Virus record (IMG/VR): IMGVR_UViG_3300046001_004127
Location: 1-37,073 of that record
Direction: 5' to 3' (one strand)
Source of the DNA: a virus
DNA: 37,073 bases
In this document: one piece after another, positions 1,706-5,377 of the stretch
How positions within the stretch are numbered: position 1 is the stretch's first letter
Layout of the letters: each line of letters begins with the position of its first letter
Program-made: the position numbers and the translations under genes
The notes under the pieces: generated by a model
Databases searched by the model: none
Seen by the model: only the letters and a program-made list of their open reading frames with translations
Told to the model about the DNA's origin: nothing

Positions 1706-3523
1706 ATGGCTGAAACAGAGAATGGTCGTAAACGCGGGTGGATGAAATATTTCAAAGTGGCCGCAGGTGACGCCAATGGCCAACTGAGTCCTATCTCTGG
1801 GCGCAATCAATCTGGCCTGCCGGGCTACGATCGCCAAAATGGCTACACTGGCAACGCCGGAACAGGTAATGATTTTGCATTCCGCAACTATGCCAGTAGA
1901 CTGCCTGAAGTGTATTCTGGTCACCCCAATCGTATTGAGCGTTATAATCAGTATGAAAACATGGATCTTGATTCGGAAGTCAATGCATGTTTGGACATCA
2001 TTGCAGAATTCAGCACACAGAACAACGAAGATAACAACACACCCTTTGATATCACATTCAAAGATACTCCCACTGATCACGAAGTAGAAATCATTAAAAA
2101 GCAGTTACAGCAATGGACCAAACTGAACAAGTTGGATCAGCGCATGTTCAAACTGTTCCGTAACACCATCAAGTATGGCGATCAGTTGTTTGTGCGTGAT
2201 CCAGAAACATTTGAAATGTACTGGGTTGACATGGTCAAAGTCAGTCGTGTGATTGTGAACGAATCAGAAGGCAAACGTCCTGAGCAGTACATTATTCGTG
2301 ACATTAACCCCAACTTTCAAAATTTAAGTATTGCACAAAAAACCACCAGCGACTACTATGTGAGCCGATCAACAGGTAGTACAGGACAAACCAACTACTC
2401 AAGTCCCAGTGGTGGATCTGGTGGTGGAGCCGGTGGCACTGTGGGCAACAGTAGATTTGCACAGGCCATGAATGAAACCTGTATTGATGCCAAGCACGTG
2501 GTGCACCTGAGCCTAAATGAAGGCTTGGATTACTTTTGGCCATTTGGACAAAGTATTTTAGAAAACATCTTCAAAGTTTACAAACAAAAAGAACTGCTGG
2601 AAGACTCTGTGCTGATCTATCGTGTGAGCCGTGCTCCAGAACGTAGAGTGTTTAAAATTGACGTGGGCAACATGCCCAGCCACATGGCCATGGCCTTTGT
2701 TGAGCGTGTTAAAAACGAAATGCACCAGCGTAGAATTCCCACTGTGAATGGCGGCGGCGCAAACTTGATGGATGCTAGTTACAATCCATTGAGTATCAAC
2801 GAAGATTACTTTTTCCCACAAACAGCAGACGGACGTGGTTCTAGTGTAGACACCCTACCCGGTGGTACAGGACTGGGCGAAATTGATGATTTAAAGTACT
2901 TTAACAACAAAATGGCCCGTGGCCTGCGTGTGCCATCAAGCTATTTGCCCACCGGACCCGACGACTCGGACCGTGCAATGAACGACGGAAAAGTAGGCAC
3001 AGCACTGATACAAGAGTATAGATTCAACCAGTATTGCGAACGTTTACAGCGTTTAATCATGCAAAAACTTGATGATGAATTCAAGATGTTCATGAAATGG
3101 CGTGGTTTTAACATCGATAACAGTATTTTTGATATTGTGCTAGGTCCGCCACAGAACTTTGCCAGTTATCGTCAAGCAGAAATGGACACCAGCCGTGTGA
3201 GCACATTTGGTGCACTAGAGCAATTGCCCTACATGAGTAAGCGTTTCTTGATGGAACGTTACTTGGGATTGAGTCAAGAAGAGATTGTAGAGAACGAAAA
3301 ACTCTGGCGTGAAGAACGTGATCAACCTGAGTTAAGTACTACACAAGGACAAGATCTACGCAGTATTGGCATCACTCCAGCAGGCATGGAAGCAGATATC
3401 AACACCGGTGAAGAACTGGCAGCAATGCCTCCTGCAGGCGCACCCGATGCAGGTGCCTTGCCAGGTGCACCAGCAGGTGCAGGAACAGCACCCACAGCAG
3501 TTCCACCACCACCGACAGCATAA
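1706..3523 (+). CDS. gp20: Portal vertex protein gp20
   Basis: T4-type portal protein, which forms the dodecameric DNA gate of the head and nucleates prohead assembly. At 605 aa it is longer than T4 gp20 (524). Recognisable parts are the N-terminal segment RLPEVYSGHPNRIERYNQY, the core with YGDQLFVRDPETFEMYWVD, and KYFNNKMARGLRVPSSYLP near residue 400. A Ser/Gly-rich insertion at about 225-247 and a Pro/Ala-rich tail after about 575 are probably disordered. Start ATG 1706 follows AAAGGA at a good distance. It opens the capsid operon and its TAA overlaps the next late-promoter-like motif. Confidence 0.95.
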   Translation: MAETENGRKRGWMKYFKVAAGDANGQLSPISGRNQSGLPGYDRQNGYTGNAGTGNDFAFRNYASRLPEVYSGHPNRIERYNQYENMDLDSEVNACLDIIAEFSTQNNEDNNTPFDITFKDTPTDHEVEIIKKQLQQWTKLNKLDQRMFKLFRNTIKYGDQLFVRDPETFEMYWVDMVKVSRVIVNESEGKRPEQYIIRDINPNFQNLSIAQKTTSDYYVSRSTGSTGQTNYSSPSGGSGGGAGGTVGNSRFAQAMNETCIDAKHVVHLSLNEGLDYFWPFGQSILENIFKVYKQKELLEDSVLIYRVSRAPERRVFKIDVGNMPSHMAMAFVERVKNEMHQRRIPTVNGGGANLMDASYNPLSINEDYFFPQTADGRGSSVDTLPGGTGLGEIDDLKYFNNKMARGLRVPSSYLPTGPDDSDRAMNDGKVGTALIQEYRFNQYCERLQRLIMQKLDDEFKMFMKWRGFNIDNSIFDIVLGPPQNFASYRQAEMDTSRVSTFGALEQLPYMSKRFLMERYLGLSQEEIVENEKLWREERDQPELSTTQGQDLRSIGITPAGMEADINTGEELAAMPPAGAPDAGALPGAPAGAGTAPTAVPPPPTA

Positions 3524-3526
3524 ATA
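3519..3526 (+). promoter_or_regulatory. Late-promoter-like motif CATAAATA before the 73-aa gene
   Basis: It overlaps the gp20 stop codon and ends only 7 bases before ATG 3534, with no ribosome site between. If used like a T4 late promoter, the mRNA would start at or next to the start codon. Confidence 0.45.
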
Positions 3527-3533
3527 AAAGATC

Positions 3534-3755
3534 ATGATCTTAAACGAACTTTACCACCGTGAACCTGAAGGCTACCAAGATGTTGCTCAAGACAACAGTC
3601 AGCCTCAAAAGAATCAGCTGCGTAAGACTCGTTTGACATTGCGACAATTGAGCAAGCTACGTCAGATGCAAGATGTTCGTAGCTTTGAATACAAAGAAAA
3701 GCTCAAAGATGTCCGTAAGCAGTATGCCCCACCAGCCGCTCCTGCCGGCTTATAA
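3534..3755 (+). CDS. Small basic protein between portal and core genes (73 aa)
   Basis: I do not recognise a named family. The protein is charged and probably helical, with a basic middle (residues 28-60, motif RKTRLTLRQLSKLRQM) and a Pro/Ala tail YAPPAAPAGL. Its place between gp20 and the gp67-like core gene suggests a head-assembly or core component, as small genes hold this slot in T4-like phages. There is no other Met near the N terminus, so ATG 3534 is the likely start despite the lack of a ribosome site. The last ten codons plus stop recur in recoded form at the end of the next gene, an HNH endonuclease. Confidence 0.75.
   Translation: MILNELYHREPEGYQDVAQDNSQPQKNQLRKTRLTLRQLSKLRQMQDVRSFEYKEKLKDVRKQYAPPAAPAGL
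3723..3755 (+). repeat. Recoded gene-end repeat, copy 1 (tail of the 73-aa gene)
   Basis: Ten codons plus TAA encoding YAPPAAPAGL. It pairs with 4485-4517, which encodes YAPPAAPPGL plus TAA. By hand count 25 of 33 bases match, and most differences are at third codon positions, so the protein is kept while the DNA differs. Confidence 0.85.
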
Positions 3756-3776
3756 TATATATTCGTTATAGCATAC

Positions 3777-3801
3777 GTCGCATAAATAACATTTATGCGA
3801 C
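3777..3801 (+). promoter_or_regulatory. Perfect 11-bp inverted repeat covering the HNH start codon
   Basis: The arms are GTCGCATAAAT (3777-3787) and ATTTATGCGAC (3791-3801), with loop AAC. The ATG at 3795 lies inside the 3' arm. On read-through mRNA from upstream, the hairpin would bury the start codon. The 5' arm holds most of the CATAAATA motif. As DNA, the dyad could also be an operator. There is no U tract, so it is not a standard terminator. Confidence 0.8.
3781..3788 (+). promoter_or_regulatory. Late-promoter-like motif CATAAATA of the HNH gene
   Basis: It lies in the 5' arm of the hairpin, 6 bases before ATG 3795. By T4 spacing, transcription would start near 3794, so the mRNA would lack the 5' arm and be free of the hairpin. 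Confidence 0.55.
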
Positions 3802-4517
3802 TACCAACACCAGTGAATGAGTTGTATCTTAACAGATATAAATCATTATTAGAACATTACACATACACATCAGATTACCCTGAGATACATCATATCTGTC
3901 CTAAGTCGCTGGGCGGTAGAGATTCTCCTGATAACTTAATATCAATCCCATCAAGAGTGCATTTTGTTGCCCATTGGATGCTATGGAAAGCATATCAAAC
4001 AGACGAGTTAGCCTATGCGTTCTGGGCAATGTGCCACCAAAAGAAGCGCGGACAAGAAAACCGCTACACAAAAATAAACAGCAAAACTTACGAGATACTT
4101 AAGAAAAGACGAAGTATAGTTATTAGCAATAGTAACACTAATCGCTGGAAAAACAAAGAGTGGGCTGAAAAAATGAAAGCCACTATGCGCAAGGCAGCAA
4201 CAACACCTGTTGAAAAAGAAAGAAGAAGTAAACAGGCAATACTAACAAATAATAAACACAAGACTGCTAACAGTAATAGTATGAAAACGTTGTGGGCCAA
4301 TGACGCCTGGGCATCAGAACAAAGAAAAAAATTCTCACTGGGTGCCGTAGCAAAAATTAAGCCTGTTATAGTTGATGGAATAGAATACCCACTGGTGTTA
4401 GACGTTGCTAAAAAATATCGCATAAGTATATCAACTGTAAGACAGCGAATACGAAGTAATACACCACAGTTCAGTGGATGGATGTATGCTCCCCCGGCCG
4501 CCCCTCCAGGCCTTTAA
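3795..4517 (+). CDS. HNH homing endonuclease with HTH-like C-terminal repeat and borrowed tail
   Basis: Free-standing homing endonuclease, expected to cut DNA of phages lacking it and spread by repair. The HNH core is at residues 29-60: EIHHICPKSLGG with H32/H33, N47, H56 and H60. The middle is Lys/Arg-rich. Residues about 188-230 resemble an intron-nuclease repeat (NUMOD1/IENR1-like HTH): VDGIEYPLVLDVAKKYRIS, then STVRQRIRSN, ending FSGW. Directly after it comes YAPPAAPPGL, matching the end of the upstream 73-aa protein. It is related to the HNH at 27888-28595: with the starts chosen here, H33, N47 and H56 fall at the same residue numbers. There is no ribosome site; the start is set by the hairpin and motif. 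It interrupts the capsid operon between the 73-aa gene and the core gene. Confidence 0.9.
   Translation: MRLPTPVNELYLNRYKSLLEHYTYTSDYPEIHHICPKSLGGRDSPDNLISIPSRVHFVAHWMLWKAYQTDELAYAFWAMCHQKKRGQENRYTKINSKTYEILKKRRSIVISNSNTNRWKNKEWAEKMKATMRKAATTPVEKERRSKQAILTNNKHKTANSNSMKTLWANDAWASEQRKKFSLGAVAKIKPVIVDGIEYPLVLDVAKKYRISISTVRQRIRSNTPQFSGWMYAPPAAPPGL
4485..4517 (+). repeat. Recoded gene-end repeat, copy 2 (end of the HNH gene)
   Basis: Encodes YAPPAAPPGL plus TAA in the HNH frame. Compare copy 1 at 3723-3755: the only amino-acid change is Ala to Pro at the eighth position. Confidence 0.85.
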
Positions 4518-4545
4518 AATCTAGTCAAATTCACCAGTTTTGACG

Positions 4546-4553
4546 TCTAAATA
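4546..4553 (+). promoter_or_regulatory. Late-promoter-like motif TCTAAATA for the core-capsid operon
   Basis: It lies 62 bases before the gp67-like ATG and just before a long hairpin. It probably drives gp67-gp21-gp22-gp23. Confidence 0.55.
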
Positions 4554-4554
4554 T

Positions 4555-4593
4555 GCTCAGTTTACTACTTTTGTGTAAGTAGTAAACATGAGC
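4555..4593 (+). promoter_or_regulatory. Long 5' leader hairpin before the gp67-like gene
   Basis: The perfect stem TTTACTACTT/AAGTAGTAAA with loop TTGTGT extends outward through GCTCAG and TGAGC with one bulged A, about 16 pairs. There is no U tract. By T4 late-promoter spacing the transcript would begin about 4559, so the stem would sit at the 5' end and may protect the mRNA. GGAGGA at 4604-4609 stays free. Confidence 0.6.
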
Positions 4594-4615
4594 CATAACC
4601 TTTGGAGGAAACAAT

Positions 4616-5377
4616 ATGACATCAAAATTTGAACAGTTAATTGAATTCGTAATTAACGATGAAGAAGCAAAAGCTAAAGAACTTTTCCATGATATCGTTG
4701 TTGAGAAATCGCGCGAAATCTACGAAAGTCTAATGGAAGAAGAAGAAGAAGAATTAACTACTGAAGAAGTTGACGAAGGCATGGAAAACGACGGCGATGC
4801 TGCTGACGATTTGATCACCGACGTAGAAACTGAAGAAGAAGGTCTTAGCGAAGAAGACGACATGGATGCTGAGTTTGACGACGAAGCAGAAGAAGCCGGT
4901 GATGATTTAACAAAAGACATCGAAGGCGACCATGACAACGAAGGCGATATTGAAGATCGCGTAGTTGACCTAGAAGACAAATTAGACGAACTAATGGCTG
5001 AATTTGAAGCCATGATGGGCGGCGAAGGTGGCGAAGAAGAACAAGAATTTGACATGGATGCTGGCGGTGACGCTATTGAAATGGATGACACATCTGAAAT
5101 TATGCCAGAAATGGGCATGATGGAAGCTGTAAGTTTGTCCAAAGTAGCTCCTGCTAAAATGGGCGACGACGGTGCCAACACCAAAAGTGTAGTACCACAG
5201 AACTCAGGTGCCAAAGGTATGCAAGGTTCCCCAGTTAAGATGACTGGTGACACTGCACAAGGCCGTCCTGCTCCATCTGTAAAAGATATGGGCATGACAA
5301 CAAGTCCTAAACAAGGTGCCGCACCAAAGCCAGTGACAACACAGGCTGCAGGCGTAAACACTAAATCTCCAGTATAA
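4616..5377 (+). CDS. gp67: Prohead core protein, gp67-like, highly acidic
   Basis: Internal scaffold core component by position and by its N-terminal segment (residues 1-40, with EEAKAKELFHDIVVEKSREI), which resembles the opening of T4 gp67 followed by an acidic stretch. Residues 40-150 are very rich in Glu and Asp; residues 155-253 are a Lys/Pro/Gly/Met low-complexity tail. At 253 aa it is about three times T4 gp67 (80 aa). It may cover the roles of both gp67 and gp68, since no separate gp68 is visible. A strong GGAGGA ribosome site precedes ATG 4616. The gene is followed within 6 bases by the prohead protease, which would be expected to process core proteins. Confidence 0.8.
   Translation: MTSKFEQLIEFVINDEEAKAKELFHDIVVEKSREIYESLMEEEEEELTTEEVDEGMENDGDAADDLITDVETEEEGLSEEDDMDAEFDDEAEEAGDDLTKDIEGDHDNEGDIEDRVVDLEDKLDELMAEFEAMMGGEGGEEEQEFDMDAGGDAIEMDDTSEIMPEMGMMEAVSLSKVAPAKMGDDGANTKSVVPQNSGAKGMQGSPVKMTGDTAQGRPAPSVKDMGMTTSPKQGAAPKPVTTQAAGVNTKSPV

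Follow-up and report, generated by a model that had tools for sequence, protein, structure and literature searches.

Two copies of one gene end in a head-gene cluster

The window, by which we mean the whole 37,073-nucleotide stretch of viral DNA that was analysed, holds a T4-like phage head-gene cluster in the order portal (phrog_213), a 73-amino-acid gene, an HNH gene, an acidic gp68-like gene and head protease (phrog_207), beyond which lie a protein of unknown function (phrog_10922) and the major head protein. The 73-aa gene (3534-3755, plus strand; phrog_13986, function unknown, E = 3e-5) sits where T4 has gp67, between the portal gene and the gp68-like gene, and is followed by an ORF encoding a 240-aa HNH homing-endonuclease-like protein (3795-4517, plus strand; phrog_655, E = 3.7e-37). 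The ORF of the gp68-like gene (4616-5377, plus strand) forms the downstream flank and adjoins the 73-aa gene in relatives in which the site is empty.

The 73-aa gene ends in YAPPAAPAGL followed by TAA, and the HNH gene ends in YAPPAAPPGL, written FSGWMYAPPAAPPGL and also followed by TAA. The terminal 33 bases of the two genes, copy 1 at 3723-3755 and copy 2 at 4485-4517 (both plus strand), are equal at 25 of 33 positions; six of the eight differences are synonymous and the other two fall within a single Ala/Pro codon. Direct comparison thus returned the same figure as the hand count of the first-pass annotation, and the coordinates, frames and peptide ends that it had given for the two ORFs agree with the ORF list. 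None of 300 shuffled neighbour C-termini scored as high as the tail peptide (49), and this, along with the match in DNA between copy 2 and the gene ends of HNH-free relatives, indicates that the likeness is not a compositional accident. The same arrangement was present at 99.5-99.95% identity (blastn; same phage) in four contigs, L001-L004, and since these come from four metagenomes, their agreement indicates that the arrangement is no assembly artefact.

Comparison with empty sites

A tblastn search of cultivated phages with the 73-aa protein gave no match, and relatives were therefore drawn from IMG/VR viral contigs, using one scan with the 73-aa protein and two scans with diverged versions of it. 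This yielded 250 loci with the 73-aa gene, in 248 of which the downstream gp68-like gene was also present. The spacing between the two genes was 50-150 bp in about 227 loci (empty) and 650-950 bp in the rest, a presence/absence polymorphism at one conserved site, with about 227 of 248 loci empty and a few lineages occupied. HNH-free relatives, including L005, L006, L010, L015 and L021, carry a single gene end that matches copy 2 at 30-32 of 33 positions and copy 1 at 23-25 (32 versus 24 in L005 and L015, 31 versus 24 in L010), copy 2 being 32/33 identical to the end in L021. This single end runs directly into the leader seen after the HNH stop, and L015 has in common with the window even the TAA stop and the bases AATCTAGTCAAATTCACCAGTTTTG. 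The first-pass annotation had set this outcome in advance as its test: one tail in HNH-free relatives, nearer copy 2 and joined directly to the leader. The opposite outcomes that it had named did not appear, as the most copy-1-like end among HNH-free relatives reaches only 26/33 (L025), and the likeness is local and at the DNA level rather than a Pro/Ala tail common to many phage proteins.

By blastn, the alignment of the window to L005, L006 and L010 breaks near 3742 and resumes at 4484. The junctions, placed by eye as the last bases matching empty sites on both sides, are two GTATGC motifs on the plus strand, one at 3722-3727, from the comparison with L005 and the blastn break, and one at 4484-4489, where the native gene end resumes in the alignments to L005, L006 and L010. 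The insert between them is 762 bp long and comprises a foreign gene end, the nuclease start region and the nuclease. It sits inside the coding sequence, 28 bases before the stop of the 73-aa gene, the end of which it replaces; its length is 3 × 254 bp and the HNH frame is that of the host gene. Copy 1 is thus the replacement tail of the 73-aa gene, while copy 2 is the displaced native 3′ end of that gene, now serving as C-terminus and stop of the nuclease. The nearest empty relative of copy 2 is only 91% identical in its flanks and so is not isogenic, and most of these comparisons rest on metagenomic contigs; nor do the lineages count as independent events. The comparison of occupied with empty alleles supports what had been proposed from the window alone, namely that a mobile unit entered near the 3′ end of the gene, kept the host gene whole and left the old tail fused to the nuclease.

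The native leader of the gp68-like gene (4518-4615, plus strand) is 97% identical to the leaders of L015 and L021 and contains a late-promoter-like TAAATA box at 4548, which the insertion left intact. Of 140 distinct empty intergenic regions separating the 73-aa and gp68-like genes, 136 contain TAAATA where 29.6 would be expected, and the box is likely a late promoter at this position; over the whole window the motif showed no enrichment (16 versus 19 expected).

The nuclease and its start region

The nuclease consists of an HNH domain, a helical linker, an I-TevI-type DNA-binding domain (residues 187-231) and the captured host tail. It matches the Pfam HNH model above cut-off, and residues E30, H32, H33, N47 and H56 are invariant in 12 nucleases. 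The Pfam I-TevI DNA-binding model (PF20987) aligns to residues 187-231 below its cut-off, and Foldseek returned the I-TevI DNA-binding domain (1i3j) with a probability of 1.00 and I-HmuI (1u3e) with 0.85, bearing out the HTH-like domain (FSGW) that had been recognized before the tail. In the AlphaFold model (mean pLDDT 85.6), the final strand covers residues 229-231, and the tail, residues 232-240, is predicted to be disordered and to lie outside the folded nuclease, with pLDDT below 50 at 237-240. Lacking a stop codon of its own, the nuclease ORF continues without a frame change into the displaced native end and terminates at the stop found there.

A perfect 11-bp inverted repeat spans the HNH start codon (3777-3801, plus strand; RNA fold -13.3 kcal/mol, z -6.3) and includes the T4-late-promoter-like sequence CATAAATA (3781-3788, plus strand). 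The motif [CTG]ATAAATA lies 5-6 nt 5′ of the ATG in all five site-specific HNH genes (those of the window, L085, L330, L086 and L087). The hairpin and CATAAATA resemble the control by hairpin and late promoter that a review of T4 mobile elements (PMC2988022) describes for I-TevI, segB and Aeh1 mobE, and may act in a similar way.

A second HNH gene of the window (L269; 28140-28562, minus strand) has a 246-aa frame with a zinc-finger-like end and is 37% identical to the 240-aa HNH protein over the nuclease part; a captured neighbour end was looked for in this gene and none was found.

Other nucleases at the same site

The domains of the five nucleases found at the 73-aa gene (window, L085, L330, L086 and L087) all end in WxY, and the proteins differ only beyond this point. 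In the window WxY is followed by APPAAPPGL and in L085 by KAAAEEAPGGF, the host tails of the L085 clade having the form QYKAPP.... L085 repeats the design of the window at the same site, with copy 1 reading QYKSPPEEGGGMM and the nuclease ending in WQYKAAAEEAPGGF. In L086 (KPTV) and L330 (KTSL) there is only a possible remnant of 3-4 codons, perhaps of host ends of the type ...PTV and ...PAL. The end of L087, TPPKVLKRRS, is read from displaced intergenic DNA, the element having joined just past the host stop. L087 and L104, a further nuclease, led to the rejection of a rule by which every element would insert just within the gene.

The gap between the 73-aa gene and the gp68-like gene is a hotspot for insertions of other kinds as well (L200, L226 and L231). 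L200 and L226 hold an unrelated insert (4232-4977), apparently with a reverse-strand ORF, and L231 (4238-4914) holds a GIY-YIG gene that seems to take its final codons, KNVKKA, from the displaced DNA of an intergenic terminator. A mirror image is seen between the gp68-like and protease genes, where a GIY-YIG gene (2029-2649 in L086/L362; at 2501 in L363 and L364 and at 1648 in L366) opens with the protease gene's own start, ATGGCTTTGTATCTC, with 15 of 15 nt in L086 equal to those of the empty L244, and the protease gene that follows has acquired another start; the pattern was absent from L367. HNH genes also directly follow the major capsid gene, some 4 kb beyond the 73-aa gene, in L008, L026-L033, L044 and L058, some of these relatives being contigs of about 340 kb (jumbo phages). 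A captured tail was looked for in the post-capsid HNH genes of L008, L026, L030, L044 and L058, and none was found.

Origin of the replacement end

Identity of the window to L010 and L015 is for the most part 93-100% over 3561-3668, falls to 70-81% over 3669-3722 and amounts to 24 of 33 positions in copy 1. The imported 3′ portion of the 73-aa gene, as delimited by this divergence, therefore covers 3669-3755 (plus strand), and the foreign tract, beginning near 3669, extends upstream of copy 1 and exceeds the duplicated part. A tract longer than the duplication argues for import from a diverged phage and against simple duplication. The first-pass annotation had described a recoded tail that keeps the host gene whole; the replacement end and the intact host gene stand, while the recoding is better read as import, and what was taken for it in copy 1 looks like the natural divergence of an imported end. 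A search of the 250 loci for a donor whose native end is copy 1 gave at best the 26/33 of L025.

The HNH-free L005 is identical to the window over 3669-3722, yet 83-94% identical per 100 bp elsewhere. The 3′ end of its 73-aa gene (5136-5222) carries the foreign tract, but the native tail resumes at the junction. L005 may once have been occupied and bear the scar of an element since lost, or it may be a recombinant whose break fell at this GTATGC.

Recurrence in unrelated genes

The same architecture was found in cultivated Acinetobacter phages. In Obolenskvirus members without the HNH gene (P711, fThrA and IME-AB2), a MazG-like pyrophosphatase ends in VFIKESDPVYAQVISEIEGNYNA (also given as FIKESDPVYAQVISEIEGNYNA). 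In the HNH-bearing A832.1, Ab59 and AB_NC1, MazG has a new end, GIFIKISDMTEIEREEYQKSINDRP, the HNH protein ends in GNLFIKESDPYYAALVKSIEENYSA (also given as FIKESDPYYAALVKSIEENYSA), and the gene downstream of the HNH gene is the same as in the HNH-free phages. The blastn alignment of A832.1 to P711 breaks at 1147|1194 and resumes at 1818|1234, and the right arm in the alignment to fThrA starts at 1772|1188, within the displaced tail. The new MazG end is a different sequence and not a drifted copy of the old one. A832.1 scored 24 in the tail test and proved real upon comparison with empty relatives. The AP2-type HNH proteins of the cultivated phages D3, LC3I3, Tiff81 and Vibrio 1.238 were also tested for a captured tail, and none was convincing.

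Another host gene is an ORF of 50-65 aa in the tail-fibre region, ending in YLKWLAEGNTPLPAD, which is occupied by two different HNH families. The occupied L103 aligns to the empty L278 up to 1641|2592 and again from 2157|2594, and the tail TPLPADK and the DNA beyond it are identical in the two. In a survey of one HNH family, 25 of 48 nucleases with distinct ends match the end of the upstream neighbour or the tail-region motif, 23 of them at the tail-region gene and the other two being those of the window and L085; nucleases at other loci showed no neighbour-end match. An unrelated AP2-type HNH family (L275) has made the same capture at the tail-region gene, with 10 further distinct ends containing the full motif. 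NUMOD3-type and AP2-type HNH proteins together include 33 nucleases with distinct ends that finish in the local gene's tail, these counts being of distinct sequences and not of independent events. In L273, L276 and L277, likewise at the tail-region gene, the new stop of the host gene and the start codon of the HNH gene overlap (AATGCCTAATCAACAT), which suggests translational coupling. As judged from these alignments, the architecture is present in at least three unrelated phage genes, including genes of cultivated phages.

Nucleases that are 97-99.5% identical occur beside unrelated downstream DNA; those of L371 and L373, for instance, are 99.5% identical, the DNA downstream of them is unrelated, and each ends in its own local tail. 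This indicates that the captured tail probably provides a stop codon and an in-gene right homology arm. Not every nuclease at these sites holds captured coding sequence, since L104 and L106 join at the stop codon or show no tail match, L087 joins past the stop and L086 and L330 have at most a possible remnant. Of the right junctions that fall in coding sequence, nearly all keep the displaced end in its native frame, the exception being L372, which is out of frame after EGNTP. The survey, being based on protein similarity, would miss out-of-frame captures, and for this reason no probability is attached to the frame of the captured ends. One ancestral fusion inherited by homologous recombination would be the simplest reason for the native frame.

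Proposed mechanism and alternative explanations

The comparison of occupied with empty alleles demonstrates, at the level of sequence, insertion inside a gene, a replacement end, a displaced end, its fusion to the nuclease, and recurrence. We consider it very probable that these features have a homing-based explanation, in which a free-standing 762-bp HNH element brought a replacement gene end and took the displaced end as its own tail. The nuclease would cut the empty allele near the end of the gene, and the break would be repaired from the occupied phage, with the body of the host gene as left homology arm and the captured tail as right arm. As both arms would then lie inside the host gene, transfer would be independent of the downstream DNA, and as the element supplies a diverged 3′ end, the host gene stays whole. 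We infer that divergence would also give immunity, the occupied allele being uncuttable because its new end is diverged and its old end is split from its left half; resistance of the occupied site to cutting, which had been proposed at the outset, is plausible.

Alternatively, the nuclease might have taken up the tail as a functional peptide, such as a signal for binding the prohead core, and retain it under selection. Tails of head genes can be interaction motifs, and the native frame of all coding-sequence junctions other than that of L372 would fit such a role. We regard this as very unlikely, however, given that continuity of the DNA with the native leader accounts for the tail without selection, that near-identical nucleases bear different local tails, that the L372 copy is out of frame, and that L087 and the GIY-YIG gene of L231 end in displaced intergenic DNA. 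The tail is also predicted to be disordered, and capture in the gene of a MazG-like enzyme and in a tail-region gene, for which no common target is expected, also speaks against such a role. The tail peptide is probably a passenger that supplies the stop codon.

An internal tandem duplication of the gene end around an existing intergenic HNH gene, with later divergence of copy 1 and no import, would account for the likeness of the two copies and for the presence of the HNH gene in a normally intergenic region. It would not explain why divergence begins at 3669, upstream of the duplicated part, or why L005 has the exact tract though it is less similar elsewhere, both of which point to import by recombination; nor would it produce the unrelated new MazG end of the Acinetobacter phages, and it too seems to us quite improbable. 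T4-like phages have introns and bypass elements, and the insert is in phase with the host gene, as might be expected if the HNH gene lay within a self-splicing intron, an intein or a translational-bypass element and copy 2 were an exon rejoined to the gene. Copy 1, however, already completes the gene, stop included, the two ORFs are separated by stop codons, no group I or II intron was found in Rfam over 3000-5300 of the window even at E values up to 1, and other sites restore the host gene in the same manner with unrelated inserts, all of which leaves this explanation with hardly any credibility.

Known systems and implications

Integrative elements whose attachment site lies in a tRNA or protein gene can rebuild the 3′ end of that gene, by means of an integrase and near-identical att repeats. 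They share with the element described here insertion at a gene end and a duplicate that restores that end, but the insert in the window holds the HNH gene alone and no integrase, its copies differ at 8 of 33 positions, and its gene is fused to the displaced end.

The closest precedent lies in fungal mitochondria, where mobile ORFs (mORFs) bring foreign C-termini to atp6, atp9, cox2 and nad3 and push the native C-terminus downstream, as in Allomyces macrogynus atp6, Rhizopus oryzae atp9, Mortierella verticillata cox2 and Glomus sp. atp6, atp9, cox2 and nad3 (PMC3630166 and references therein). In both systems the invading endonuclease ORF arrives close to the 3′ end of the gene and brings a diverged C-terminus as replacement, its parts match the phase of the host gene, and the displaced native C-terminus stays nearest to element-free relatives, which is shown here for the two copies against 250 relatives. 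The mORFs differ in being mitochondrial and of the LAGLIDADG or GIY-YIG type, as opposed to HNH in a T4-like phage head cluster, and in that their displaced end lies outside the endonuclease ORF and is sometimes untranscribed, whereas here it is the C-terminus and stop of the nuclease.

The free-standing seg and mob genes of T4-like phages, as treated in PMC2988022, likewise join an HNH or GIY-YIG nuclease to a separate DNA-binding domain, occur sporadically between conserved genes and carry, across their start, a hairpin and a sequence like a late promoter. Their flanks are described as being co-converted, and reported cleavage sites of free-standing endonucleases can be hundreds of bases or more away (PMC2988022). 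Their location is given there as intergenic, in contrast to the element of the window, which lies within coding sequence; in T4 mobE, the best-known HNH relative, a copy of the nrdA end was looked for and none was found. Free-standing HNH genes inside coding sequence are described in the same text for mobE in Aeh1 nrdA and mobA in T4 gene 60, but there the host gene is split into pieces, whereas that of the window is given a new end. The available parts of that review and of a survey of phage nucleases (PMC10448857) contain no description of a captured gene end in a phage, and no description of gene-end capture by a phage nuclease was found in the open literature searched. As subscription papers were outside this search, novelty in phages is likely but not proven, and the earlier view that such an element would be little described holds for phages within the literature covered and fails for fungal mORFs, which act alike.

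Free-standing homing endonucleases of phages have been thought of as intergenic passengers. The results presented here describe a recurrent class whose members insert into coding sequence yet leave the gene unbroken, give it a rewritten end and are themselves joined in translation to the end that was discarded. This would explain sharply diverged, odd C-termini of phage structural and metabolic genes, as well as many annotated HNH proteins whose final residues match the neighbouring gene. It also provides a sequence signature for the insertion sites, and hence the likely target sites, of many uncharacterised nucleases, and it links phage elements to mitochondrial mORFs. The pairs of cultivated Acinetobacter phages with and without the element make the mechanism directly testable.

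We lean towards a broader reading, in which phage homing endonucleases live quite generally by gene-end capture and, on insertion, bring a new end and appropriate the old one, at the 3′ side with its stop or, in mirror image, at the 5′ side with its start, the old end serving as both expression signal and in-gene homology arm. If this is true, homing would need homology to a single gene only, which suits mosaic genomes with unrelated neighbouring DNA, and the ends of phage genes would be repeatedly replaced as a by-product.
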